Part shown: positions 4,871-52,859 of the stretch, one piece after another | Position numbering within the stretch: position 1 is the first letter of the stretch | Layout of the letters: each line of letters begins with the position of its first letter | Assembly: GCA_903902745.1 (NCBI GenBank) | Contig: CAIUWA010000012.1 | Span: forward strand, 1 to 64,000 | From: an uncultured Opitutia bacterium | GTDB taxonomy: Bacteria > Verrucomicrobiota > Verrucomicrobiia > Opitutales > Opitutaceae | Direction of reading: 5' to 3' | Length of the DNA: 64,000 nucleotides | Program-made: the position numbers and the translations under genes | The notes under the pieces: generated by a model | What the model was told of the DNA's origin: nothing | The model's input: the letters and a program-made list of their open reading frames with translations, nothing else | Database searches by the model: none

Positions 4871-7279
4871 GTGTTATCCGTGGCTAATCCCTCCCAACCC
4901 GCCGGCAGCCTCACCGGCGTCGTCGAGCGCATCATCTTCCTGAACGAGGAGAACCACTATACCATCGCGGAGTTCCGGCCGGACCCAGCCTCCGCCAAGG
5001 CTACGGCGGGCGAGGCTGTCCCGCCCGCCGCCACTCGTCCTGCCGTGGCCGCGAAACCGGCGGCGGGCAAAAATGTCCTGAAGGAAAAACCCGGCATCGT
5101 CACCATCACCGGCGCCCTACCCGGCGTGGAATGTGGGGAGACGCTCCACCTCACCGGCGAGTGGACGCGGCATGCGCAGCATGGTGACCAGTTCAAGGTC
5201 GCGGCGTTCAAGAGCGAGCTGCCCTCCAGCGTTTACGGCATCCGCAAATATCTCGGCAGCGGCCTCGTGCCGGGCATCGGCAAGGTCTACGCCAACAAGA
5301 TCGTCGACGCCTTCGGCACCGACACGTTCCGCGTGCTGAGCGAGGAGTCGGGCAAGCTCCGCGCCGTGCCGGGCATCGGCAAGAAGCGCGCGACCGCCAT
5401 CAAGCAGGCCTGGGATGAAAAGCGTACCGAGCGCGAGCTCTACATCTTTCTCCAGACCTACGGCGTGACGCCCAGCCAGTGCGTGAAGATCGTCCAGCAC
5501 TACGGCGCGCAGTCCAAGGCGATCCTGCTCGAGCAGCCCTACAAGGTCGCCCGCGAGATCGAGGGCATCGGCTTCAAGACCGCCGACCGCATCGCCATCA
5601 ACCTCGGCTTCGCCAACGACGCCCCGCCGCGGCTCGACGCCGGGATCATCTACGCGCTCGAGACGCTGCAGGAGGAGGGCCACACGGCCTTTCGCGAGGC
5701 CGAGCTCATCGAGCATTCCGCCGCCCAGCTCGAAACCGACTCTAAGCTTGTCGCCGCGCGCATTGACGCCTTGGTCGAATCCAAGGCCGTCGTGCGGCAC
5801 CCGCCCGCCGGTGTCGCCAATCCCCTGCCCGGCTCCGCGCTGATCCAGTTACCGCACAACGACCGCGCCGAGCAGAAAATCGCCGCCGCCGTCCAGCGGC
5901 TCAACCGCGTCGCCAGCGGCCTGCCGCCGATCAAGGCCGACGCCGCCGTCGAGTGGGCGGAGAAAAAGGCCGGCTTCGCGTTCCACGAGCTGCAGCGCGC
6001 CGCCGTCCGCCACGCGCTCACTTCCAAGTTAACGATTCTGACCGGCGGACCCGGCACGGGTAAGACGACAATTTTGCGCGCCCTCGTCGACATCCTGAAG
6101 GCCAAGAAGGTCCGCGTGCACCTCGCCGCGCCCACCGGCCGCGCCGCCCAGCGCCTCACGGAGACCACCGGCGGCTTTGCCTCCACGATTCACCGGCTCC
6201 TCAAATATGACCCGGCCGGCGGCGGCTTCGTCGCCAATGAGTCCTCGCCGCTCGCCACCGACTTCCTCGTGCTCGACGAGGCCTCGATGCTCGATACCCG
6301 CCTTGCCGCGGCGCTCCTGCAGGCCGTGCCGTCCAAGGCCCACCTCCTCCTCGTCGGCGACACCGACCAGCTCCCCAGCGTCGGGGCCGGCAACGTCCTC
6401 AAGGACCTCATCGCCGCCTCCGCGGCCTCCGCCTCAGACCTCACGCCTCAGACCTCACGCCTCACCCTCCCCGTCACCCGTCTCTCCGTCATCTACCGGC
6501 AGAAGGACCAGAGCGCCATTGTCACCACCGCGCACGCCATCAATGCCGGCGATCCCTCGCTGCCGCCCGCCGTGCCCGAGGTCGCGCAGGCGCAGGTGTG
6601 GTCCGACTTGAATTTCATCATCGCCGCCGACGCCGAGGACTGCCTCCGCAAGGTCATCCAGCTCGTCACCGAGTTCGTGCCGCAAAAACTGAAGTGGCCG
6701 GATCCTATCAACGACGTCCAAGTGCTTGCGCCGATGCACAAGGGTTTGGCCGGCGTCGGCAATTTCAACACGCAGCTCCAGGCCGCGCTGAATCCGTCCG
6801 CGACCGCACCGGCGAAGCCCTGGGAAAAAGGGCGGACGGCGTCCGCCCTGAAGACCATGGCCGGTGAGTTTCGCGCCGGCGACAAGGTCATCCAGCTGCG
6901 CAACGACTACGACAAAAACCTCTTTAATGGCGACATCGGCACCGTGACCGCCGTGCACGCGGCGGGCGGCACGCTGGAAGCGGAATTCGATGACGAACGG
7001 CACACGTTCGACCGCGGCGCCCTCGGCAATCTCGCGCTCGCCTACTGCATCAGCATCCACAAGTCGCAGGGCAGCGAATACCCCGTCGTGATCATCCCGC
7101 TGCTCAAGGCGCACTTCATGATGCTGCAGCGCAACCTGCTCTATACCGCGATCACGCGCGGCCGGAAAAAGGTCTTCCTCGTCGGCGAGCCCGCCGCCTA
7201 CGCGATGGCCGTCCGCAACAGCGAGTCCAAGCTCCGGCTGACCCACCTGCGCGAAAAGATCCTCGCCGGGAAAACCTGA
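4871..7279 (+). CDS. recD2: RecD2-like ATP-dependent DNA helicase (SF1B)
   Basis: An 802-residue protein (GTG at 4871; a GTG at 4880 is an alternative). The N-terminal OB-like region and tandem helix-hairpin-helix motifs ('LVPGIGKVYA', 'AVPGIGKKRA', 'EIEGIGFKTADRIA') match the RecD2/TraA family. Walker A GGPGTGKTT is at about 392-400, Walker B VLDEAS at about 467-472, and the C-terminal UvrD-like motif 'SIHKSQGSEYP' near 728. It would be a 5'-3' helicase in recombination or repair without RecBC. Odd: a repeat unit is inserted in frame near residues 40-48 (ASAKATAGE), making the N-terminal region longer than usual and Ala/Pro rich. Monocistronic, with palindromic repeats on both sides. Confidence 0.92.
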   Translation: MLSVANPSQPAGSLTGVVERIIFLNEENHYTIAEFRPDPASAKATAGEAVPPAATRPAVAAKPAAGKNVLKEKPGIVTITGALPGVECGETLHLTGEWTRHAQHGDQFKVAAFKSELPSSVYGIRKYLGSGLVPGIGKVYANKIVDAFGTDTFRVLSEESGKLRAVPGIGKKRATAIKQAWDEKRTERELYIFLQTYGVTPSQCVKIVQHYGAQSKAILLEQPYKVAREIEGIGFKTADRIAINLGFANDAPPRLDAGIIYALETLQEEGHTAFREAELIEHSAAQLETDSKLVAARIDALVESKAVVRHPPAGVANPLPGSALIQLPHNDRAEQKIAAAVQRLNRVASGLPPIKADAAVEWAEKKAGFAFHELQRAAVRHALTSKLTILTGGPGTGKTTILRALVDILKAKKVRVHLAAPTGRAAQRLTETTGGFASTIHRLLKYDPAGGGFVANESSPLATDFLVLDEASMLDTRLAAALLQAVPSKAHLLLVGDTDQLPSVGAGNVLKDLIAASAASASDLTPQTSRLTLPVTRLSVIYRQKDQSAIVTTAHAINAGDPSLPPAVPEVAQAQVWSDLNFIIAADAEDCLRKVIQLVTEFVPQKLKWPDPINDVQVLAPMHKGLAGVGNFNTQLQAALNPSATAPAKPWEKGRTASALKTMAGEFRAGDKVIQLRNDYDKNLFNGDIGTVTAVHAAGGTLEAEFDDERHTFDRGALGNLALAYCISIHKSQGSEYPVVIIPLLKAHFMMLQRNLLYTAITRGRKKVFLVGEPAAYAMAVRNSESKLRLTHLREKILAGKT
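4988..5014. repeat. REP-like unit in frame within the RecD2-like gene
   Basis: CCTCCGCCAAGGCTACGGCG and the following GGCGAG form a short imperfect palindrome encoding ASAKATAGE. The word 'TCCGCCAAGGCTACGGCGG' is known to me as a dispersed repeat in Verrucomicrobia-like genomes. It is flanked by low-complexity Ala/Pro codons, which suggests an insertion tolerated in a loop of the protein. Confidence 0.6.
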
Positions 7280-40842: not shown

Positions 40843-41304
40843 TCACGCGAACCGCACCGTGACCTGGATCTCGACGGTGGCGTTGCGCGGGAGGCCGGCG
40901 ACGGCGATGGCGGCGCGGGCGTGTTTGCCGGCCTCGCCGTAGAGCTGAACGAAAAGGTCGCTCGCGCCGTTGATCACCTGCGGGCTCTCCGCGAAACCCG
41001 CCACGGCGTTCACGTACCCGCCGACATAGAGAAACTCCTGCACGCGCGCGAGCGAGCCAAGCGCGCCCTTGATCGCGGCGAGCGTGTTGAGGGCACAGAC
41101 TTGGGCCGCGACCGCGGCGGTGGCGACCGTTTGGTCGCGGCCCACCTGGCCGGCGTGGGTGACGATCCCGTCGCGCGCGCTGATCACGCCCGCAAGGATG
41201 AGCGTGTTGCCGTTGATGCGGTGCGGCACGTAGCTGCCGCCCGGCGCCGGGGCTGCCGGCAGCGTGAGCCCGAGCGCGGAGAGTTTTTCCTCGATGGCAT
41301 CCAT
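40843..41304 (-). CDS. RidA family protein (longer type)
   Basis: A 153-residue protein from ATG 41304, matching the RidA/YjgF-like family of about 150 residues: 'MDAIEEKLSALGLTLPAAPAPGG', 'NTLILAGVISARDG', 'GQVGRD', 'NTLAAIKGALGSLARVQEFLYVGGYVNA', 'QVINGASDLFVQLYGEAGKHARAAIAVAGLPRNATVEIQVTV'. This subgroup lacks the classic deaminase Arg pattern of short RidA and is of unclear role, often in amidase or deaminase clusters. Two bases after the FmdA stop, last gene of the minus-strand run. Likely clears or hydrolyses a reactive imine/enamine or carbamate product. Confidence 0.85.
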   Translation of the reverse strand: MDAIEEKLSALGLTLPAAPAPGGSYVPHRINGNTLILAGVISARDGIVTHAGQVGRDQTVATAAVAAQVCALNTLAAIKGALGSLARVQEFLYVGGYVNAVAGFAESPQVINGASDLFVQLYGEAGKHARAAIAVAGLPRNATVEIQVTVRFA

Positions 41305-41306
41305 GT

Positions 41307-42248
41307 TCAGCGGGCCGGCGCGTCGAAGATCGCCTCGGGCAGGTAGGCGGAGATGGTCGAGACGGGGGCGTTGACCAGCTGACTGATCTTCAGGTCGAGC
41401 ACGACGCTGCAGAGGATGAGCGCGCGTTCGCGCGTCAGGCCGAGGCGCTGCTGGAGGTACGCCATCGCCCGGCGCACCGCAGCGCGGCTGGCCTCGCGCA
41501 GGTCCTCGTGCGACTCGATGAAGACGTGGAACGGCTTCGTGAGATACCGCGGCGGCAACAGCGTGGGCAGCGCGAGCACGTAGGGCGCCGCGAGCGGATG
41601 TTTCTTGCGCAGGTGGACGCGGAAAGTGGCGGTCATCGGCGCCTCCATGCCGTTGATGCAGACCTCGCCATCGCCCTGCGCGGCGTGGGCGTCGCCCGCA
41701 CACAGGCCCGCGCCCGGCGTGAACACCGGCAGCATCAATCGCGCCCCCGCGCCAAGGTGGCGGACATCCATGTTGCCGCCGAACGGCCCGGGCGCGCGCG
41801 TGCGAAACTCTCCGGACTCGGCGCGCTGCACGCCGATGATCCCGCAGAACGGATGGAGATCGAGCGTGACGCCCGGCATGCTGCGCGTCTGCGTGGCGTC
41901 GAGTTTCCAGATGTGCAGGTCGGGCGCGGTGAACTCGTCGCCCAGCAGGCCGAGGCCCGGGATGATGCTCGTCCACGCCCAGCCCTCGTGGCGGTAGTCG
42001 AGGATCTCGATGTCGAGCGCGTCACCCGGCTCGGCGCCGTCGACCGCGACCGGCCCGGTCAGTGCATGCACGCGCAACTTGTCGAAGGCGGCGAATGCCG
42101 GGATCGTCATGCCCGGATGCACCTGGCCGTCGCTGGAATCCTTCATCACGAGCGAGACGGTGTCGCCCGGGGCAATCGTGAGCACGGGCGGATAATCGCG
42201 GTTCCAGCGGTTGCACGTATGCGTGCGATCAACGGTGTGGTGGGCCAT
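41307..42248 (-). CDS. Acetamidase/formamidase family protein (FmdA/AmdA)
   Basis: A 313-residue protein with the FmdA_AmdA pattern: 'TVDRTHTCNRWNRDYPPVLTIAPGDTV', 'TGPVAVDGAEPGDALDIEIL', 'HPFCGIIGVQRAESGEFRTRAPGPFGGNMDVRHLGAGARLMLPVFTPGAGLCAGDAHAAQGDGEVC'. The conserved GDAHAAQGDGE motif with Asp/His/Glu is intact. The family hydrolyses formamide, acetamide and N-formyl compounds. Here it sits between a RidA and an amidohydrolase, so it may release formate or ammonia from a ring-opening product. A role in deformylating a pyrimidine such as formylaminopyrimidine is an inference. Confidence 0.9.
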   Translation of the reverse strand: MAHHTVDRTHTCNRWNRDYPPVLTIAPGDTVSLVMKDSSDGQVHPGMTIPAFAAFDKLRVHALTGPVAVDGAEPGDALDIEILDYRHEGWAWTSIIPGLGLLGDEFTAPDLHIWKLDATQTRSMPGVTLDLHPFCGIIGVQRAESGEFRTRAPGPFGGNMDVRHLGAGARLMLPVFTPGAGLCAGDAHAAQGDGEVCINGMEAPMTATFRVHLRKKHPLAAPYVLALPTLLPPRYLTKPFHVFIESHEDLREASRAAVRRAMAYLQQRLGLTRERALILCSVVLDLKISQLVNAPVSTISAYLPEAIFDAPAR

Positions 42249-42254
42249 GGTTCG

Positions 42255-43496
42255 TTAGAACGAACTGCCCGGACTGAACCCCGGTGCGCGCCAGAGTTCG
42301 CGACCGAGCCGATAGGTGGCGAGCACATCCCCGGGGGTCACGCGCGTGAGGATCGACGCGGGGATATGGCGCGTCGCGCGCAGGTGCGGCTGGTGAAAGT
42401 CGAGCACCACAAACGTGGCGGGCAGGCCGCGCTCGAGGTTTCCGTGGTGGTCGCCGCCGAGGACAGGACGGATGTTGCTCGTAGCCATGCGCAGGATCGT
42501 GAGTGGGTCGGGCCGCAGGGCGTCGCCAAACTGACTCTTCGCCAGCTTGTAGGTGAAATCGAGCTCGGCGAAGAGGTTCGGGCTGTTGAGCAGGCCGTTG
42601 TCGCTGCCCAGCAGCAGGTTCACCCCGGCGTCGAGCAGCGCGCTCACGGGCGGCAGCGGGAGGCCAAGGTTGGCGTTGGCCCGCGGGTTGAGGGCGGCGG
42701 TCTTGCCGGACTTGGCGAGCAGCGCGATCTCGGCGGCATTCGCGACGGTGAGGTGGACAATGAGATGCGGGTCGTAGAGCTCCAGCGCACGGATGAGGTC
42801 GCCCCGACCGGTGCGCGCCAGACTCACGTCGCGATAGGCGGCGTTCTCGAGGCAATGGATGGCCCGCAGTTTTTTGCGAAGCGTGGTGATCTCGCGGATC
42901 TCGCGCCACGCGAAGTCCGTGAGGTCGTTCATCGTGCTCTCGCTGAAGCCGTCGGCCACCTTCAAGATCGCCTCCAGCTCGGCGCGGGCGGCCTGGGGCA
43001 GGAAGGTGTTGTTGGCGGCGAGTGCCTGGGCGTCGAACGGCACGCCGTCAAACTGGCCGAGGATGACCGAGTCGACCCCGGTCTCGCGCGCCGCGGCGCG
43101 CAGCAGCTCGGCGCCCGCAGGGCCCTGCTCGCGGAAATCGAGGTGGCAGACGGTGCCGGAGCGCGCCATGTAGCGCAGGTGCGCAATGACGTGCGGCAGG
43201 TGCTGCCCGCGCGAGAGCTTGGCCAGCTCGCGGTATTTGAAGCCGTGCGGGCGGAAAAAGCCCTGCTCCAGCGTGAGTCCCGTGGCCCCGTCGGGCAGGC
43301 ACGAGTCGCCCATGTGCGTGTGGCTGTTGTAGAGGCCGGGAATGATGACGAACGCGCCCTGCGCCAGCTCGCGCGCCGGTTCGACGCGGTCGAGCGCGGT
43401 GATCGTGTCGTGGGACCACGCGAACCGCGCGCAGCGCCAGGGCTCGAGCGCGGGCCCGATGAGGACAATGCAGTCGCGAAGTTCGCCGGCGCTCAT
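42255..43496 (-). CDS. Amidohydrolase (metal-dependent, cytosine deaminase/TrzF-like)
   Basis: A 413-residue protein of the amidohydrolase superfamily. Metal motif 'NSHTHMGDS' (HxH) follows the first strand, a later 'HCLEN' and 'HLTVANAAEIALLAKSG' supply His ligands, and 'GSDNGLLNSPNLFAEL' supplies the catalytic Asp. The terminal 'LPATFVVLDF' strand closes the small beta domain. The active site appears complete. Related proteins hydrolyse cyclic amides or deaminate heterocycles. It overlaps neither neighbour but is only six bases from each, so it is in the operon. Confidence 0.83.
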   Translation of the reverse strand: MSAGELRDCIVLIGPALEPWRCARFAWSHDTITALDRVEPARELAQGAFVIIPGLYNSHTHMGDSCLPDGATGLTLEQGFFRPHGFKYRELAKLSRGQHLPHVIAHLRYMARSGTVCHLDFREQGPAGAELLRAAARETGVDSVILGQFDGVPFDAQALAANNTFLPQAARAELEAILKVADGFSESTMNDLTDFAWREIREITTLRKKLRAIHCLENAAYRDVSLARTGRGDLIRALELYDPHLIVHLTVANAAEIALLAKSGKTAALNPRANANLGLPLPPVSALLDAGVNLLLGSDNGLLNSPNLFAELDFTYKLAKSQFGDALRPDPLTILRMATSNIRPVLGGDHHGNLERGLPATFVVLDFHQPHLRATRHIPASILTRVTPGDVLATYRLGRELWRAPGFSPGSSF

Positions 43497-43502
43497 GGCG
43501 GG

Positions 43503-44024
43503 TTACGCGGACAGCTCGTCGTCCCGCTGGTGCAGGAAGACGAGGATCAGGCCGAGGCAGGCGAACATGCGGAAGGCGGCGTCCTGGCCGTTCCACGATT
43601 TCGACTGCCACATGAGGAACCATTCGCCGCCGACGGTGATGAAGGCGGTGAACCACTGGAGCAGGCTGACGGTGAGACCGGCGGTGGCGAACGCCTTGGC
43701 GCGGTTGAAGGCCGCGGCGTCGGCTTGGCGCGCCGCCCAGAGCTTCCCCGCACCGACAAAACAAAGGGCACCCGCGGCGGCCTCCCAGGCGATGATCGAC
43801 CAGTAGAAGGCATGGTGCAGCCAGTAGCTGTGGCTGCCCGCCACGGGATCGCGGAACGCGCGCCAGGCCTGCGCCTCGCCGGAGAAGAGCGTGTCCATGC
43901 CGAGGACATGCTGGACGAAGCCGTAGTTGGAAGGATAGTCGAAGACCGCGTTGTTAAGGACGACGATCAGCAGGAAAAAACCCACTGCGGCCACGAGGGC
44001 GATTTTGCAGAGACGGACAGCCAT
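43503..44024 (-). CDS. DUF2165 family small membrane protein
   Basis: A 173-residue protein with four hydrophobic helices (about 5-27, 70-92, 115-137, 148-166) and the family pattern 'NNAVFDYPSNYGFVQHVLGMDTLF' after the first helix, then 'FYWSIIAWEAAAGALCFVGAGKLW'. Unknown function. Family members are small inner-membrane proteins of about 165 residues. Six bases before the amidohydrolase start, so it may help membrane transport or anchoring of the pathway. Confidence 0.85.
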   Translation of the reverse strand: MAVRLCKIALVAAVGFFLLIVVLNNAVFDYPSNYGFVQHVLGMDTLFSGEAQAWRAFRDPVAGSHSYWLHHAFYWSIIAWEAAAGALCFVGAGKLWAARQADAAAFNRAKAFATAGLTVSLLQWFTAFITVGGEWFLMWQSKSWNGQDAAFRMFACLGLILVFLHQRDDELSA

Positions 44025-44208: not shown

Positions 44209-45504
44209 TTAGCCCAGCTCGGCGTAATCCGGCACCGGCGGTGCGTGCAGCTCCTCGTCGTCGACGCAGCGGCGCGAGGCCAGCGAACGGCTCAGCAGTT
44301 CGCTGAACGATTGGGCAGCAAACACGACGAGGTGAGCCGGCGCGCCGGGCGCGACCCGGCCCGATTCCGGACGGCCGACCAGTTCCGCCGCCATGCGCGT
44401 GACAACGCTCACCGACTCCGCCAGTCGCGAGTCGAGATGGGCCAGACGCAGGCTTTGGTTGTAGACCTCGATCATATCGAGATCTCCGTAGGCGCAGAAC
44501 GCATCGCGCACGTTGTCACTCGCGCAGGCCACGGGCACGCCCGCGTCGAGGAGATCCTGGATCAGCGTGAGCCCGCGCCAGAAGGGCGTGCGCGGAAATT
44601 CCGCGCCGCGCCGGCCCTGGAGATAGAGGTTGCACAGCGGCAGCGAGATCACGCCGATGCGCGCCTCCTTGACGAGGGCGATGGTCGAGCGCTGCCGCTC
44701 GGGGGCCTGCACGGTCAGGCTGCAGCAGTGGCCGCAGACGACGGGAAACGGAAAGGCGTTCCGCAGCACGCCTTCCGCGACGGCGCGCAGGACCTCGGCG
44801 GCTGGGTTGCCGTTCTCGTCCACGTGCAGGTCGATGCCCGTGCCGCGATCGCGCGCGATCGCCAACAAGCGGTCGATCTGCCGGGGCAGCTCCGGCGACA
44901 TCTGCAAGAATCCCCCCAGGGCGCTCGCGCCATAACCCAGGGCGAGGTCGGCGATTTTCTCCCCGCCGGCACCCGTGTAGCTGTCGCCGCCGCAGAGCGG
45001 CACGGTCTGGAGCTCGATGCGGCCGCGCCATTCCGCGCGCAGCTCCGCCATCACGGCATGGCTCGTCTCGCCGTGCGGCAGCCAGGTGTCGACATGGGTG
45101 CGCACGATCCGCGTGCCATGGGCCCACGCACAGCGGAGCGCAAAGCCGGCGCGCCGGCGGAGGTCGTCCGCCGTCCAGTTGACCTTGTCACGGCCGAGCG
45201 TTTCCAGCGCATCCTGAAAGGTGCCGGAGCGGTTGGGTGCGCGGGTCCAGGTGTGCGCCTTGTCGAGATGGGTGTGCGCATCGACGAAGGCGGGAAACAC
45301 CAGCGCGCCCCCGAGATCCAAGACACGGCCGGTCGCGGACGCGGCCGGGGGACGGGAGTCAGGCGACAGGGTGACGGCGACCAGGCGATTGCCCTCGATG
45401 GCGAGGTCGCAAAGTAGCGCCGGGTCCAGCGGATCGAACGAGGTGGCGGCCAATGCGGGCGGCAGCAGCGCAACCGGCACGCGGGCACGGCGGAGGAGAA
45501 GCAT
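44209..45504 (-). CDS. Cytosine deaminase-like amidohydrolase
   Basis: A 431-residue protein of the CodA-type amidohydrolase branch. 'VDAHTHLDKAHTW' (HxH), 'THVDTW', 'DLHVDENGNP', 'VVCGHCCSL' and 'ASDNVRDAFCAYGDLDMIEVYNQ' give all metal and catalytic positions (His, Glu, His, Asp). It differs from E. coli CodA after the catalytic Asp, so the substrate may be cytosine, creatinine, isoguanine or a related ring. It is upstream of DUF2165 and downstream of DUF3891 in the same direction. Confidence 0.85.
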   Translation of the reverse strand: MLLLRRARVPVALLPPALAATSFDPLDPALLCDLAIEGNRLVAVTLSPDSRPPAASATGRVLDLGGALVFPAFVDAHTHLDKAHTWTRAPNRSGTFQDALETLGRDKVNWTADDLRRRAGFALRCAWAHGTRIVRTHVDTWLPHGETSHAVMAELRAEWRGRIELQTVPLCGGDSYTGAGGEKIADLALGYGASALGGFLQMSPELPRQIDRLLAIARDRGTGIDLHVDENGNPAAEVLRAVAEGVLRNAFPFPVVCGHCCSLTVQAPERQRSTIALVKEARIGVISLPLCNLYLQGRRGAEFPRTPFWRGLTLIQDLLDAGVPVACASDNVRDAFCAYGDLDMIEVYNQSLRLAHLDSRLAESVSVVTRMAAELVGRPESGRVAPGAPAHLVVFAAQSFSELLSRSLASRRCVDDEELHAPPVPDYAELG

Positions 45505-45557: not shown

Positions 45558-46373
45558 TCATCGCACCAGGCACAAGGCCAGACTTTCAGGAGCCACCGCG
45601 GCATAGGCCGCGCGGAATTGCTCCTCGCTGGCGAAGATCCCGCCGCGCACACAGCGGCAGGGCACCGTCAGCCGCAATTCGTCGGCATCAAACGGATAGG
45701 GCGAGATCCGGTAGGTGTCGCCGCCGAGCGGGGTGCACTGCAGGGTCGTGAGCGTGCCGTCGCGAAGCGGGTGCCGGTGGCGCAGGGGCCGGGGCTGCGG
45801 ATAGCGCACGCAGGCGATGAGCGAAAGATTGTCGCAAACCTGGAGAAACTCGAAGGCGCGCTCCAAGCCCGCCGCCTCCACGTCGGCCGCGCGGCCCGTG
45901 GCGCGAACCTGCATGGCCAGCGCGGCCTGCCGGCGCCGCTGGCCGAGGAGAAATTCGCGCAACCGGACGAGATCGGGCTGGCTCACCCCGGCCAGGTTGG
46001 CCTGCTCGGTCAGCAGGTTAACCGTGTGCATAGAGATGAGGATGGCGGCGTAGGGATTGTCCGCCGCCACCGCCTCGGTCGCCCGGCCGCGCACCGCGAG
46101 ATAATCGGCGAGGTCAATCTCCTCAAAGGCACTGTAGGTCCCGACCAGTTCATGCGAAAACGCGCTCGGCAGCCCCGCGCGCGTCAGGCACGGCCGGGCG
46201 TCGCGCTCTGCCCAGGCGTCGTCGTGCCGGGTCACCGCCACGAGAATGTCGCCCCGCGGCTCGGGCGGCGCGAAGTCGGCGTTGCCCCAGTGCCGGGCGA
46301 ATTCCCCGGCCAGCCGGGCGTGGTCCGGATGCTCCACCAGCCTCCAACCGCCGGCTTCCTTGATGCGAATCAT
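45558..46373 (-). CDS. DUF3891 family protein
   Basis: A 271-residue protein with the family start 'WRLVEHPDHARLAGEFARHWGN' and the 'VTRHDDAWAERDARPCL' block, whose conserved HDD and H residues could bind a metal. The later part is helical ('YAAILISMHTVNLLTEQANLAGV') and ends in a beta-rich tail with a 'YRISPYPFDADELRLTVPCR' strand. The fold and function are not known to me. It is a soluble protein, so perhaps a hydrolase of a pathway intermediate. Confidence 0.78.
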   Translation of the reverse strand: MIRIKEAGGWRLVEHPDHARLAGEFARHWGNADFAPPEPRGDILVAVTRHDDAWAERDARPCLTRAGLPSAFSHELVGTYSAFEEIDLADYLAVRGRATEAVAADNPYAAILISMHTVNLLTEQANLAGVSQPDLVRLREFLLGQRRRQAALAMQVRATGRAADVEAAGLERAFEFLQVCDNLSLIACVRYPQPRPLRHRHPLRDGTLTTLQCTPLGGDTYRISPYPFDADELRLTVPCRCVRGGIFASEEQFRAAYAAVAPESLALCLVR

Positions 46374-46547: not shown

Positions 46548-47360
46548 TTACTCCAATCCAGCCGCATGCCGGCCCTCGCGCGCGAGCTCGGCGATGGCAG
46601 CCGCGTAGAGGCCGGCACCGTGATCGAGCCATTGGGCACCCAGTTCGGGTGTGGCCGCGAGGGCATCGCCCATGACGCCGGATTTCGAGAGATCGGCCGT
46701 CACCCAAGCCATGGTCACCGGCGCCCGCTCGGGCCTCAACTCACCGGGATCCCCCACCCGGCCGCAATATTCGCAGACGGCATCGGCCATTTTCACATAT
46801 TGCGGCGCCGCGGCCAGCAGCCACGCGGTCTCGGCGGTGTTGGCGTGGAAGCCAAAGGCCTTCTCCTGGTCCGAAAGGCCCAGCTCGAACATAGGCGCGA
46901 GCTGGCTGCAGCGCAGGCCGAACTGCGCCCGGATTTCCCGCAGGGTGTAGCCGATCACCGCCGTGTTGCCACCGTGGGTGTTGAGCACGGCGATCTGGCG
47001 GAAGCCCCAGGCGTGCACCTGGCGCGCGATCGTGAGCAGCAGCGCCCGCAGCGTGTCCTTGGAAATGAACAGCGTGCCGGGAAACCCCGTGTGCTCGTTG
47101 CTCTTGCCGATGGTGATCGGCGGGGCGACATAGCACGAGGCGGCCGGCGGCAGCAGCGGCAGTGTCCGTGAGAGCCAGACCTGGCCCATGAACGCATCCA
47201 CGGCCACGGGCAGGTGCGGGCCGTGCTGCTCGATGGCCCCGGTGGTGATGATGACCGGCGCCCACGCCTTGTCGGGCAGCGCCGCGATCTGCCGCGGCGT
47301 CATCGCCGGCAGATAGCGGTCGCGGTAAGCGGGGAAGATCCCGGGAGGAGAGGCACTCAT
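46548..47360 (-). CDS. Creatininase family amidohydrolase
   Basis: A 270-residue protein with a complete creatininase site: 'TTGAIEQHGPHLPVAVDAF' (Glu, His, Asp), 'PPITIGKSNEHTGFPGTLFIS', 'VLNTHGGN' and 'GFHANTAETAW' with the second metal Glu. The family cleaves cyclic or linear amides, e.g. creatinine to creatine, or MftE and riboflavin/formamidopyrimidine-like substrates. ATG 47360 overlaps the upstream stop as ATGA. The preceding gene encodes a related protein that has lost these residues, so the two may form a heteromer. Confidence 0.9.
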   Translation of the reverse strand: MSASPPGIFPAYRDRYLPAMTPRQIAALPDKAWAPVIITTGAIEQHGPHLPVAVDAFMGQVWLSRTLPLLPPAASCYVAPPITIGKSNEHTGFPGTLFISKDTLRALLLTIARQVHAWGFRQIAVLNTHGGNTAVIGYTLREIRAQFGLRCSQLAPMFELGLSDQEKAFGFHANTAETAWLLAAAPQYVKMADAVCEYCGRVGDPGELRPERAPVTMAWVTADLSKSGVMGDALAATPELGAQWLDHGAGLYAAAIAELAREGRHAAGLE

Positions 47361-48124
47361 GGCTGGGCGATGGGGATTTTCCCGCCGTGGGCCAGCGGCG
47401 GGCGGGCGTGGATCTCAGCCAGGAGCGAGCCGAGGTGCTTCGCGACTGACGCCAAGGTGGCCGCGCCGGCGACGGCGGCGGCCTCGAGCGACAGCGCCGG
47501 CTCCATGAGCGGCCGGACCGTCTCATCGCCCGGGCCGGCAACTGGCGGAGGGACGGCGGCAGGGGATGGATCGGGGACGCGTCCCGTCAGTGCGGTGATC
47601 AAGGTCTGGACCTTCCGGCGGTCCTTGCTCCGGACGGGATGAAGATCCAGTCCGAGGCCGCTGAGACTGACGCGGAAAATCTGCAGGCCGTGGGCAATGC
47701 GCAAGTCGCGAGCCGCGGCGCCGATCAGTTCCTCGTTCCACGGGCTCGCATTATAGAACACCAGCTTGCGAAAGCCGACAGCGGCAATGGAGGCGGCCAC
47801 CTCCGCAATCAGCGCATGGGCGACGGGGGGATCCACCGCAAATGCGCAGCCCGGATCGGGCCCAAGAACAAAGCGCAGCGGCGGCACCACCAGCAGAGGC
47901 AGACCCGCGGGACGCTGCTGCGAGGCCGCGCGAAGCACATGCATCAGCACGGTCTCCTCGGCATCCAGCGCATGGCCCAGGCCCCAGTCCGCCGTGCCGG
48001 CGAGGGGCAGGACGACGACGGTACCGGCGGGATCGGGCCAGCTGGAAAATTCCGGCCAGCGGTGCCACGGCCAGAACGTGGCGTCGTCGGCGACGCAGAG
48101 CGGAGTGAGGGCGGGCGGGCTCAT
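47357..48124 (-). CDS. Creatininase-fold protein lacking metal ligands (pseudoenzyme)
   Basis: A 255-residue protein from ATG 48124. It aligns along its length with the next gene: 'GTADWGLGHALDAEE' in place of the EQHGPHLPVAVDA block (Asp retained, Glu and His lost), 'PPLRFVLGPDPGCAF' in place of the 'PPITIGKSNEHTGF' strand, and 'GFRKLVFYNASPWN' in place of GFRQIAVLNTHGGN (His lost). So it has the creatininase fold without the metal site. It overlaps both neighbours by ATGA (stop at 47357 and start at 48124), a sign of tight stoichiometric coupling. Likely a regulatory or structural partner of the active creatininase. Confidence 0.75.
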   Translation of the reverse strand: MSPPALTPLCVADDATFWPWHRWPEFSSWPDPAGTVVVLPLAGTADWGLGHALDAEETVLMHVLRAASQQRPAGLPLLVVPPLRFVLGPDPGCAFAVDPPVAHALIAEVAASIAAVGFRKLVFYNASPWNEELIGAAARDLRIAHGLQIFRVSLSGLGLDLHPVRSKDRRKVQTLITALTGRVPDPSPAAVPPPVAGPGDETVRPLMEPALSLEAAAVAGAATLASVAKHLGSLLAEIHARPPLAHGGKIPIAQP

Positions 48125-48516
48125 TTGACGGCGGTGACCTCGATCTCCACGCAACAGCCCGTGCGGGCCAGGCCCTTCACCTCGATGAGCGTGCTCGCGG
48201 CCAGCGCGGTGCCGAGGTAGCGGTTGCGCACCGCGGAAAACTTCGGGAAATCATCCATGTTGGTGAGATAAGTCTGCGCCCGCACGACGTGGTCAAAGGT
48301 CATGCCGGCCGCCGCGAGGATTTCCCCCGTCAGCTTGAACACATATTCCGTCTGCACCGTGGCGTCGCCCGGGGCGACGACCTGGCCGGCGGGATCCACC
48401 GCCAGCTGGCCGGTGGCGAACAGCAGCTGGCTGCCACCCAGATCCAGCAGGACGCCGGGGCTGTAGGTGCCACGCGGCGCGGCGAAACCCGGGGGATGGA
48501 CGAGAGTTTTTTTCAT
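48121..48516 (-). CDS. RidA family enamine/imine deaminase (short type)
   Basis: A 131-residue protein from ATG 48516. It matches the classic YjgF/RidA family: 'LVHPPGFAAPRGTYSPGVLLDLGGSQLLFATGQLAVDPAGQVVAPGDATVQTEYVFKLTGEILAAAG', 'HVVRAQTYLTNMDDFPKFSAVRNRYLG' and 'ASTLIEVKGLARTGCCVEIEVTAV'. The usual Arg near the C-terminus (GLARxGCCVEIE) that binds the substrate carboxylate is present. First gene of the minus-strand run, coupled to the pseudo-creatininase by ATGA. It would hydrolyse reactive enamines or imines formed during deamination. Confidence 0.9.
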   Translation of the reverse strand: MKKTLVHPPGFAAPRGTYSPGVLLDLGGSQLLFATGQLAVDPAGQVVAPGDATVQTEYVFKLTGEILAAAGMTFDHVVRAQTYLTNMDDFPKFSAVRNRYLGTALAASTLIEVKGLARTGCCVEIEVTAVK

Positions 48517-48651: not shown

Positions 48652-50064
48652 ATGACCACCGTGACGGCTGAGCTCCGGTCGCAGTTGCGCGACCTGCTCG
48701 GACAGGAAAACCTTGTCGAAGGCGGAGATACGCTCGAGACGCTCTCGAAGGACTTCTACTGGTATTCGCCCGTGCTGAAGCGTCAGCTCGATGACAAGCG
48801 CGCCGAGCTGATCGCGCGCCCCGCCGACCTGTCGGCCTTGCGGGCCGTCTTGGCCGCGTGCCATGCGGCCGGGGTGCCCGTCGTGCCGCGCGGTGCGGGC
48901 ACCGGCAATTACGGCCAGTGCGTGCCCCTCTACGGCGGCGTGGTCGTGGACCTGTCGCGGCTCGACCGCATCCTCTCACTCGACGACGGGGTGGCCCGCG
49001 TGGAGGCCGGGGCGCGGATGGGCACCATCGAGGCCGCCGCCCGCGCCCTCGGATGGGAGCTGCGCTGCATGCCGTCGACCTGGGTCAAGTGCACCATCGG
49101 TGGATTTTTCTGCGGTGGCTCGGGCGGTATCGGCTCGATCACCTGGGGCGGCATCAACGCCCCCGGCAACGTCAAGTCGGTCACGATCCTCACCTGCGAG
49201 GCCGAACCGCGCCTGATCAGGCTGGAGGAAGCCGAGGCGCTCAAGGCGCTGCACACCTACGGCACGACCGGCTTCATGGTCGAGATCGAGATGCGGCTCG
49301 CGCCCAAGGTGGACTACGACCAGCTCATTTTCAGCACGCCCGACTGGGACCGGCTGCTGGACTGGACCGATGCCACGGCGCGGCGCGGGGACTGGCGCAA
49401 GCGGCTCGTCACGCAGTTCGAGTGGCCGACCCCCTCGTTTTTCAAGCCGTTGAAAAAATATTTCCGCAACGGCGAGCACGTGAGCTTCCTGCTCCTCGAC
49501 CGCGCGCGGACGGACGAGGTGGTGCGCCTCGCCGAGGCCACGGGCCTGGCCTGCGTCTTCCGGCAGCCGCTCTCCGATCCGCCCAAGCCGCCGTTCATCA
49601 CCGACTACACCTGGAACCACACCACCCTCTGGGCCATGAACGCCGACCCGGCCTACACCTACCTGCAGTCCGGCTTCGGGCGGAATTTCCGCGAGCAGTT
49701 CGCCGAGCTGCGGCGGCGGTTTCCCGGGGAAATCCTGTTCCACCTCGAGTGGACCGCCGGCAACGCCAAGATGATGCGCGGCAACGCCGTCGCGCAAAAC
49801 CCGGACTCCGTCGTGGTCGGAGGCATTCCCCTCGTGTATTTCAAGTCCGAGGCGAGGCTCAACGAAATCCTCCGGGCCTGCGACGAGCTCGGCGTTTTCA
49901 TCGCCAACCCGCACACTTTTTATCTGGAGGAGGGAGGGCGGCATCCCAACATTGCCGACAAGCGCACCTTCAAATCCGAGGTTGATCCGCGCGGCCTGCT
50001 TAATCCCGGCAAGATGAAAACCTACGAGCACAACCCCTTCGCCCCCGCCGAGGTGAAGGCCTGA
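48652..50064 (+). CDS. FAD-binding oxidoreductase (glycolate oxidase GlcD/berberine-like)
   Basis: A 470-residue protein with an FAD_binding_4 (PCMH) domain: 'RPADLSALRAVLAACHAAGVPVVPRGAGTGNYGQCVPLYGGVVVDLSRLDRIL', 'KCTIGGFFCGGSGGIGSITWGGINAPGNVKSVTILTC'. The C-terminal half is a substrate domain ending 'EVDPRGLLNPGKM', the usual GlcD-type tail. It would oxidise a hydroxy- or ring-CH substrate, passing electrons to a carrier. Start ATG 48652 has no strong ribosome site; it diverges from the RidA gene over a 135-base gap. Head of the plus-strand run leading into the ABC importer. Confidence 0.85.
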   Translation: MTTVTAELRSQLRDLLGQENLVEGGDTLETLSKDFYWYSPVLKRQLDDKRAELIARPADLSALRAVLAACHAAGVPVVPRGAGTGNYGQCVPLYGGVVVDLSRLDRILSLDDGVARVEAGARMGTIEAAARALGWELRCMPSTWVKCTIGGFFCGGSGGIGSITWGGINAPGNVKSVTILTCEAEPRLIRLEEAEALKALHTYGTTGFMVEIEMRLAPKVDYDQLIFSTPDWDRLLDWTDATARRGDWRKRLVTQFEWPTPSFFKPLKKYFRNGEHVSFLLLDRARTDEVVRLAEATGLACVFRQPLSDPPKPPFITDYTWNHTTLWAMNADPAYTYLQSGFGRNFREQFAELRRRFPGEILFHLEWTAGNAKMMRGNAVAQNPDSVVVGGIPLVYFKSEARLNEILRACDELGVFIANPHTFYLEEGGRHPNIADKRTFKSEVDPRGLLNPGKMKTYEHNPFAPAEVKA

Positions 50065-50082: not shown

Positions 50083-50223
50083 ATGGCGAACAACGCAACC
50101 CTCTCGCCGGATCCGGCCGATGGCAGGCTGTTCCCGCCGGTTGTCACGGTGCGGCCGGCCACCTCGCTGGGTTTCGACGGTCCGGCCCGGCCTCCGGTGC
50201 CCAAACAGCGCGTGCTGCCATGA
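50083..50223 (+). CDS. Small ORF (46 residues) coupled to the ABC ATPase gene
   Basis: ATG at 50083 opens a 46-codon frame beginning MANNATLSPDPADGRLFPPV whose stop overlaps the ATPase start as ATGA. About 80 percent of its codons end in G or C, as in neighbouring genes. The product is Pro-rich and has no recognisable domain, signal or membrane helix. It may be a leader peptide, a small partner or an open frame by chance. No good ribosome site was seen before the ATG. Confidence 0.35.
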   Translation: MANNATLSPDPADGRLFPPVVTVRPATSLGFDGPARPPVPKQRVLP

Positions 50224-50981
50224 CTGCCCCGCCCATCGTCCAGCTCAAAGCCACCGGCAAGCGCTTCGGTGCCGGTCCTCCCGTGCTGGAAGCGATCAAC
50301 CTGGAGGTCGAACGTGGTGAGTTCATCAGCCTCATCGGGCCCAGCGGCTGCGGCAAATCCACCCTGCTCCGCCTCATCGCCGGGCTCACTCCGCCCACCG
50401 CGGGGGAGATCATCGTCGATGGCATGACGCCGGCGAACGCGCGCGAGGAGGTGTTCTTCGTCTTCCAGGATTCGAACCTGCTGCCATGGCGGCGGGTGGC
50501 CGCCAATGTCGAGCTCCCGCTGATGCTGCGCCGGGATCTCACCCTCAAGCGACGCGAACGGGTGAAGGCGATGCTCGAGCTCGTGGGCCTGGGGGACGCC
50601 GCGGAAAAATATCCGTGGCAGCTCTCCGGCGGCATGAAGATGCGCGTGTCCATCGCGCGGGCTCTCAGCGTGGCGCCGCACATCCTGCTCCTCGACGAGC
50701 CGTTCGGGGCACTCGACGAAATGACGCGGGACCACTTGAACGAGGATCTCCTGGGCATTCGCGCCCGGGATCCGTTCACGGCGTTTTTCGTCACGCATTC
50801 GGTGGCCGAGGCGGTGTTCCTCTCGACCCGCGTCGTCGTGCTCTCAGCCAACCCGGGGCGGGTGCACCGCGTGATCACGGTGCCGTTCCCCTACCCGCGC
50901 CCGCCGGAACTGCGCGAGACGCCCGAGTTCCTCCAGCTGCTGGCAGAAACTTCCCGCGAATTGCGCGCCGTGCGGCATTGA
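50220..50981 (+). CDS. NitT/TauT/ThiZ-type ABC transporter ATP-binding protein
   Basis: A 253-residue ABC ATPase. Walker A 'GPSGCGKST' is at about 39-47, Q-loop 'FVFQDSNLLPWR', signature 'LSGGMKMRVSIARAL', Walker B 'ILLLDEPFGALDE' and switch His in 'FFVTHSVAEAV'. The sequence belongs to the SsuB/TauB/ThiZ group used for nitrate, taurine, sulfonates and thiamine pyrimidine precursors. Eight bases separate its stop from the permease start. The binding protein three genes on fits a THI5-like ligand. Confidence 0.9.
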   Translation: MTAPPIVQLKATGKRFGAGPPVLEAINLEVERGEFISLIGPSGCGKSTLLRLIAGLTPPTAGEIIVDGMTPANAREEVFFVFQDSNLLPWRRVAANVELPLMLRRDLTLKRRERVKAMLELVGLGDAAEKYPWQLSGGMKMRVSIARALSVAPHILLLDEPFGALDEMTRDHLNEDLLGIRARDPFTAFFVTHSVAEAVFLSTRVVVLSANPGRVHRVITVPFPYPRPPELRETPEFLQLLAETSRELRAVRH

Positions 50982-51772: not shown

Positions 51773-51824
51773 AACCGGCGCCCGCGCGTGAAAGCGGCAC
51801 ACAGCAAGCTAGGTGACCGGGGTC

Positions 51825-52859
51825 ATGACCATTTTCCGACGCCTTTCCCCCTCAGCCACGGTTTTCATCCTGCTCAGCGCCCTCGGGCTCGCGGGCTGCA
51901 GCCGTGATGCAGCCCCGAAGCCCGCTCCCGGCGGCGCACCGACGCTCACGAAGGTCATTCTCCAGACCGACTGGTATGCCGAGCCGGAGCACGGCGGCTT
52001 TTACCTGGCCTTGGTCAAGGGTTATTACCGCGAAGCGGGACTCGACGTGGAAATCAGCCAGGGCGGACCCAATTCGATGCCCCCGCAAAAGGTCGCCACC
52101 GGCGCCGCCACCTTCGCCCTCGGCCGCAGCGACGACGTGGCGATCGCCAACAGCCGCGGCATTCCCATCGTGATGGTCGGCGCGCTGATGCAGCGCGATC
52201 CGCAGGCGATCATGTTTCATCGCGAGAGCGGCATTCACACGTTCAAGGACCTCGACGGGCGCAACATCATGGCGGTGCCGGGCTCCACGTTTCTCCCCAT
52301 CATGGAGCAGACCTACCACATCAAGGTCGCGGTCACCCCGCTCGACTTCGGCCTGAGCCGGTTCATGGCCGACAAGAATTTTGTGCAGCAATGCTTCATC
52401 ACCAACGAGCCCTTCTACGTGCGCAAGGAGGGCGCCAAGGTCGAAACGCTGCTGCTCTCCGACTCGGGCTTTTCACCCTATCGCGTGTGGTATGCGAAGC
52501 GGAGTTATATCGCCGAGCACCCGGAGGTCGTGCGGGCGTTCACCGCCGCGTCGATCCGCGGCTGGCGGGAATACGTGGCGGGTGACACGGCGGAGGCGAA
52601 CGCCCGGATCTCATCGCTCAACCCCAAGATGGACGCGGAATTCATGGCCTACAGCGTGAAGGCCATGCAGGACTTCAAGCTCGTGACGGGTGACCCCGCC
52701 CTCGGTGAGTCGGTCGGGCAGATTCGACGGGAACGCATTGAGCACGAGCTCAAGCAGATGGCCGGGATCGGCCAGTTTGAACGCCCCGTGACCGTGGACG
52801 AGGTTTTCGACGGGCGCTTTCTGCCCCCCGAGGCCCAGCCGGCGGCTCCCGGCAAGTAG
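51825..52859 (+). CDS. THI5/NMT1-like substrate-binding lipoprotein (ThiY-like)
   Basis: A 344-residue lipoprotein from ATG 51825 (in-frame GTG at 51813 also possible); lipobox LAGC, Cys25. The start of the mature domain 'LQTDWYAEPEHGGFYLALVKGYYREAGLDVEI' is the THI5/NMT1 and ThiY hallmark (W-x-N/E-x-x-H-G-G/A-F-Y), known in periplasmic receptors for formylaminopyrimidine and related pyrimidines. 'GRSDDVAIANSRGIPIVMVGALMQRDPQAIMF' follows the usual order. Operon with the ATPase and permease above. Its ligand is thus likely a pyrimidine or similar ring, though the family also binds others. Confidence 0.85.
   Translation: MTIFRRLSPSATVFILLSALGLAGCSRDAAPKPAPGGAPTLTKVILQTDWYAEPEHGGFYLALVKGYYREAGLDVEISQGGPNSMPPQKVATGAATFALGRSDDVAIANSRGIPIVMVGALMQRDPQAIMFHRESGIHTFKDLDGRNIMAVPGSTFLPIMEQTYHIKVAVTPLDFGLSRFMADKNFVQQCFITNEPFYVRKEGAKVETLLLSDSGFSPYRVWYAKRSYIAEHPEVVRAFTAASIRGWREYVAGDTAEANARISSLNPKMDAEFMAYSVKAMQDFKLVTGDPALGESVGQIRRERIEHELKQMAGIGQFERPVTVDEVFDGRFLPPEAQPAAPGK

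Follow-up and report, generated by a model that had tools for sequence, protein, structure and literature searches.

A creatininase-family enzyme and its metal-site-deficient paralogue as probable partners in a hetero-oligomeric amidohydrolase

Two adjacent genes in the window, as we term the whole analysed stretch of 64,000 nucleotides from an uncultured Opitutia bacterium (contig CAIUWA010000012.1), probably encode the two subunits of a hetero-oligomeric amidohydrolase of the creatininase family, derived from an old duplication, in which one subunit is obligate but non-catalytic; we put the probability of this explanation at roughly 0.78. The catalytic creatininase-family protein, hereafter ACT (270 residues; 46548..47360, minus strand), and the creatininase-fold pseudoenzyme, hereafter PSE (255 residues; 47357..48124, minus strand), were both recovered as open reading frames, as proposed in an earlier sequence-only reading. 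They form the second part of a head-to-tail trio on the minus strand in the order Rid, PSE, ACT, the first gene of which codes for a Rid/YjgF family protein of 131 residues (48121..48516, minus strand). At each junction the genes share a 4-base ATGA overlap (-4), with the Rid stop meeting the PSE start at 48121..48124 and the PSE stop meeting the ACT start at 47357..47360 on the same strand, so that the overlaps described earlier on either side of PSE are real. Overlaps of this type probably couple the translation of the adjoining genes. The 1:1 production that had been deduced from these overlaps is certain only for the natural fusions described below; equal output from the split genes is plausible, an ATGA overlap alone being no proof of it.

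ACT displays the sequence features E44-Q-H46-G-P-H49-L-P...D55 and N127-T-H129-G-G-N, and retains E44, H46, H49, D55, E89, H90, H129, H172 and E177. It is recovered by the Pfam Creatininase profile (PF02633) with an e-value of 4.8e-57, and its AlphaFold2 model matches creatininases with Z-scores of 17.1–18.0, the next fold scoring 8.3; score, fold and ligands all place it in this family. The ligand positions are intact in all 34 ACT proteins of the loci first compared, and in a wider set of 49 pairs E44, H46, D55, H129, H172 and E177 are intact in every copy. This wider set omits one PSE whose partner is cut at the end of the fetched stretch (L113) and a near copy (L080) of another locus (L079); a frameshifted copy (L044) was excluded from the alignments throughout, and a lone creatininase (L046) served solely for the tree and as a route into Bacillota. 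Creatininase (creatinine amidohydrolase; PDB 1j2t, 1q3k, 3a6j) shares its fold with both PSE and ACT, and its metal-ligand motif with ACT. However, ACT falls below the cut-off of all three creatininase-type NCBIfam families that it matches: its best match is the mycofactocin peptidase MftE (TIGR03964; 99.1 bits against a cut-off of 172), followed by the true creatininase equivalog (TIGR04448; 60.1 against 235), as which it is accordingly not filed, and the 3-dehydro-scyllo-inosose hydrolase IolN (NF041098; 50.9 against 245). The model of ACT alone, built from 14 sequences, is of low confidence in four stretches (1–6, 46–51, 88–98 and 194–230), with 46–51 and 88–98 lying by the active site, and this counts against the preferred explanation; as a mere hint, these active-site loops might be ordered by the partner.

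PSE is matched by the PF02633 profile weakly but significantly (e-value 1.9e-9; 37.7 bits against a cut-off of 31.3) over residues 22–150, corresponding to the first half of PSE. A profile of PSE recovered only weak matches among the sequences of solved structures (3lub, e-value 0.044), and it is therefore the fold, rather than the sequence, that carries this step of the homology argument. Its AlphaFold2 model, generated from 14 sequences of the window's clade (pLDDT 78.6, pTM 0.81), matched the 12 listed creatininase entries with Z-scores of 16.4–17.2 over 204–213 residues against 8.8 for the next fold, and a Foldseek search with the model concurred (3a6k, e-value 5e-8). The creatininase-like nature of the upstream protein, for which structure prediction had been proposed as a check, thus survived that check, and the Pfam score together with the predicted fold rules out a mis-called or unrelated reading frame. 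At the positions of the ACT ligands the alignment shows glutamate replaced by alanine (A45), the first histidine by tryptophan (W47), the second by glycine (G50), aspartate by glutamate (E56) and the histidine of NTHGGN by serine (S127). The three losses that had been noted earlier, namely the histidine of HG(P)HLP, the glutamate and the histidine of NTHGGN, are hence correct and are joined by others. The ligand glutamate and the NTHGGN histidine are gone in all 34 PSE proteins of the loci first compared. Across the 49 copies of the wider set, the number of ligand equivalents left at the four sites is one in 34, two in 13, three in a single copy (L081) and none in another; glutamate is never seen at the first ligand site, histidine occurs once at the last, the ligand aspartate has become glutamate in 47 copies, and histidine persists at the first histidine position in 14. 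The last figure and the copy with three of four equivalents weigh against the preferred explanation. PSE thus scores above the gathering cut-off of PF02633 and has the fold of the family, and lacks its Glu/His/Asp/His metal ligands (A, W, E and S in the window); to judge from these residues, it is a homologue of the creatininases and not a metalloenzyme of this family. This also carries a warning for annotation, as the family score would name both proteins creatininase, though one is devoid of the metal site.

In PSE the most conserved region is that of the former metal-holding loops (3.24 versus 1.97 bits; Mann-Whitney p 3.5e-8; 24 sequences). PSE further possesses a signature of its own, D54-x-E56-E57 with D140-x-R142, which is present in 45–48 of the 49 copies. 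Columns conserved in at least 90% of the 49 pairs number 14 in PSE versus 44 in ACT, and, taken over the set, PSE has changed at about 1.6 times the rate of ACT. Among close relatives the dN/dS of PSE is 0.11–0.21, compared with 0.07–0.24 for ACT (9 comparisons each), so purifying selection acts on both proteins, and decay by drift is rejected. This selection, the retention of the former metal loops as the best-conserved part and the distinct signature together suggest that the protein was rebuilt rather than abandoned. In a tree of 38 PSE, 38 ACT and 8 lone creatininase sequences computed with IQ-TREE, all PSE proteins form one clade, on a long stem, and all ACT proteins another, each with an ultrafast bootstrap of 100. 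The distance matrices of the two are correlated (r = 0.75, 37 pairs, the window pair not among them), where the maximum of 2000 permutations was 0.43; correlated trees are expected for any co-inherited neighbours.

We surveyed 200 genomes of the window's family and tested each ACT match by position for a PSE immediately preceding it on the same strand, which was found for 92 of 101 matches; minor second hits are omitted from this count, and one genome (G172) contributes two rows for a single broken gene. The nine exceptions are accounted for: four lie at contig ends (G125, G022, G053 and G158, with L097 still showing an in-frame PSE end), one is a fusion with overlapping hit ends (G124), three are C-terminal fragments (G025, G163 and G059), and one is a distinct lone creatininase (G048). 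This is the co-occurrence expected of an enzyme–pseudoenzyme heteromer, and the recurrence of the arrangement rules out chance adjacency. The PSE and ACT queries each matched 78 of the genomes, the two sets differing through contig ends, fragments and unrelated creatininases. No PSE without ACT was found in the 200 genomes, contig ends excepted, and the pairing is obligate as far as tested. Two genomes of the window's genus match neither protein, indicating that the pair as a whole is accessory, a point against the preferred explanation. C-terminal fragments of ACT at three places (L104, L105 and L106) are without a nearby PSE, and are apparently relics of lost pairs. In a search of the phylum 26 of 387 genomes were matched, weak matches to lone creatininases included, and in a search of the order 27 of 177; of 14 places fetched from the latter, 12 are pairs and two are lone canonical creatininases. 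Pairs are thereby seen in 10 families, including one from beyond the class, with f2, f6 and f28 added by the phylum search and f5, f8, f9, f82, f85 and f95 by the order search. In f5, f6 and f28 PSE is strongly diverged and the neighbouring ACT intact.

Furthermore, PSE and ACT frequently occur as the N- and C-terminal halves of one open frame. This was the case at 15 of the 20 distant places first fetched, the other five having them as separate neighbours, and six and then one more fused frames came from places fetched later. Over the 200 family genomes the two fall in the same listed frame at 41 places, and 12 of the 70 pair-bearing genomes have both same-frame and different-frame places, a figure that is approximate as it uses listed frame lengths. 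The linkers vary in length, some being short and others reaching about 220 residues, which gives the halves the appearance of tethered domains rather than of a merged fold. Two genomes belonging to one genus carry an in-frame IS200-like transposase domain (Y1_Tnp; Pfam 3e-10; of the REP-associated type by eye) within the linker, at 5236-5835 on the minus strand of L059 (G002) and 6108-6737 on the plus strand of L090 (G051), so that a single open frame reads PSE-transposase-ACT.

These natural fusions, the near-strict co-occurrence and the mirror-image trees make a physical complex of PSE and ACT likely. Creatininase is a homohexamer, and the creatininase PDB entries, which list 6 chains or multiples thereof, are consistent with this. 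Under the explanation that we favour, a duplication early in the history of the Verrucomicrobiota would have given rise to two creatininase copies. ACT would have retained the binuclear metal site, whereas PSE, which lacks two or more of the four ligands in nearly all copies but preserves the fold, would have been maintained as an obligate non-catalytic subunit. PSE would probably stand in for one protomer of an ancestral homodimer or homohexamer, yielding an (ACT-PSE)n particle in which it replaces one protomer per dimer and catalysis is confined to ACT. The subunits would be supplied either from overlapping PSE-ACT genes or as a single PSE-linker-ACT polypeptide, and the emptied loops of PSE would have one of two roles, namely to lie against ACT and mould its active site, or to accommodate a small molecule. 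We infer this geometry, and likewise that PSE would be needed to stabilise or activate ACT.

Genes for consecutive steps of a pathway can also be co-transcribed and fused, and fusion alone is hence no proof of a shared quaternary structure. One could envisage that PSE is a second live enzyme with a rebuilt active site, catalysing the step before or after that of ACT, and that the fusions are bifunctional proteins, which are common. The strong conservation of the former ligand loops, their polar residues D46, D54, E56, E57 and E132 and the signature seen in nearly all copies are compatible with such a site. However, other polar positions are lost in some of the copies (H162 is kept in 33, N130 in 32 and R169 in 36 of the 49), no common set of metal ligands or nucleophile emerges across the PSE copies, columns conserved at 90% or more are far fewer than in ACT, and in the 200 family genomes PSE is seen on its own only at contig ends, making a second enzyme unlikely. 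A looser association, wherein the two are separate proteins of a shared pathway that never touch, would be in keeping with the Rid protein, deaminase-type amidohydrolase, DUF2165 protein and ABC transporter that also travel along in the window's clade. Yet outside this clade only PSE and ACT stay together, to the point of becoming one polypeptide, and the fused type is without these conserved neighbours; we therefore consider mere pathway sharing improbable. The faster divergence of PSE might even suggest a decaying duplicate, kept by linkage and devoid of any role, but such a relic is very hard to reconcile with a dN/dS similar to that of ACT in the same genomes and with retention in 10 families and in-frame fusion.

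Within the hetero-oligomeric explanation, a possible though tentative refinement assigns PSE a regulatory role, whereby an effector, such as the substrate, the product or a pathway intermediate, would bind in its emptied pocket and thereby turn the activity of ACT on or off. The constraint on the pocket loops, stronger than anywhere else in PSE, fits this proposal, as does the activation of trypanosome AdoMetDC by its dead paralogue, although loops facing ACT across an interface would give equal conservation. Extended to the lineage, this would speculatively depict a Verrucomicrobiota branch of the creatininases as a catalytic/non-catalytic hetero-oligomer or fusion, with the dead pocket now an effector- or substrate-sensing gate on ACT.

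The principle of an active enzyme bound to a catalytically dead paralogue is known. Trypanosome AdoMetDC is reported to form a working heteromer with its dead paralogue, the prozyme (PMC5201418), and deoxyhypusine synthase with its own (PMC3663545). PSE resembles the prozyme in being a paralogue with lost catalytic residues; however, these systems belong to other enzyme families, are eukaryotic and have measured activation, whereas that of ACT by PSE is inferred. The creatininase structures matched by our models list one molecule each and no pseudo-subunit, unlike the pair described here. We found no report of a hetero-oligomeric or pseudoenzyme-containing creatininase in the open-access literature, most subscription journals being outside this search, and a term search of a review covering the principle (PMC10211241) turned up no mention of "creatinin-". 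If our explanation is correct, the pair would be such a creatininase, and would offer a bacterial system in which one enzyme-pseudoenzyme pair occurs in two forms, encoded by overlapping genes or naturally fused. The role of the dead subunit would then be directly testable, with split and fused forms and pockets eroded differently across lineages serving as natural experiments.

Beyond the phylum, a search of viral contigs recovered no relative. In a plasmid collection 405 records matched the fusion query, with one having a single place that spans 80% of it; the 15 matches listed are short single places of about 735–840 bases, by eye mostly lone creatininase genes. As a control, PF02633 was detected in 82 of 199 Bacillota genomes, with two adjacent same-strand pairs apparent by eye (in G743 and G573). 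EQHG and HGGN are intact in both members of the G743 pair. In G573 (L100, 3928-5591) the first copy has, by eye, cysteine for the first histidine and has lost the region of the ligand aspartate; unlike PSE it keeps the glutamate and the histidine of GH-WN, and among 20 genomes of the family concerned such a pair was seen in one. It is possibly an independent case of a degenerate partner. Three other Bacillota loci (L101, L102 and L103) encode divergent lone creatininase-like proteins with the motif GLEWH(G/S)EHLAVG, in which the Pfam match consists of two weak pieces.

In the window's clade the pair is accompanied by genes for Rid, a deaminase-type amidohydrolase, DUF2165, an FAD oxidase and an ABC transporter. 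In the window itself, ACT is followed on the minus strand by genes for a DUF3891 protein (45558..46373), an amidohydrolase of the NCBIfam cytosine deaminase type (PRK07583; 465 bits against a cut-off of 403; 44209..45504), whose homologue is conserved near the pair in relatives, the DUF2165 membrane protein conserved in this neighbourhood (43503..44024), another amidohydrolase (42255-43496) and a formamidase-like FmdA_AmdA protein (41307-42248). Divergently, on the plus strand, lie an FAD-binding oxidase (48652-50064), an ABC ATPase (50220-50981) and an NMT1-type substrate-binding protein (51813-52859). Positions 41307-62281 hold altogether three amidohydrolases, the formamidase-like protein, Rid and ABC transporters of the NMT1 and PnrA types, and two large reading frames there resemble TonB receptors by eye. 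The neighbours of the pair, along with the further amidohydrolases and the formamidase-like, PnrA-type and TonB-like frames, point to uptake and breakdown of an N-heterocycle, and 41307-62281 is probably a region for the uptake and catabolism of nucleobases or other N-heterocycles. The substrate of ACT in this genome would most likely be a cyclic amide or ureide within the catabolic pathway of a nucleobase-like N-heterocycle. In its own neighbourhood comparison the fused type showed no conserved metabolic neighbours; in one genus GreA/B-like, ParA-like and NadA genes lie nearby. Given this lack of window-type neighbours and the genomes with both forms, split and fused proteins may differ in substrate. 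By eye, a second Rid/YjgF-like reading frame is present at about 40843-41310 (minus strand). The Rid protein of the trio has serine (Ser108) at the position of YabJ's arginine, as do 24 of 24 homologous rows from L003-L045, in which some genomes appear twice. In RidA this arginine is the catalytic one, and the Rid protein of the window may not be an imine deaminase.
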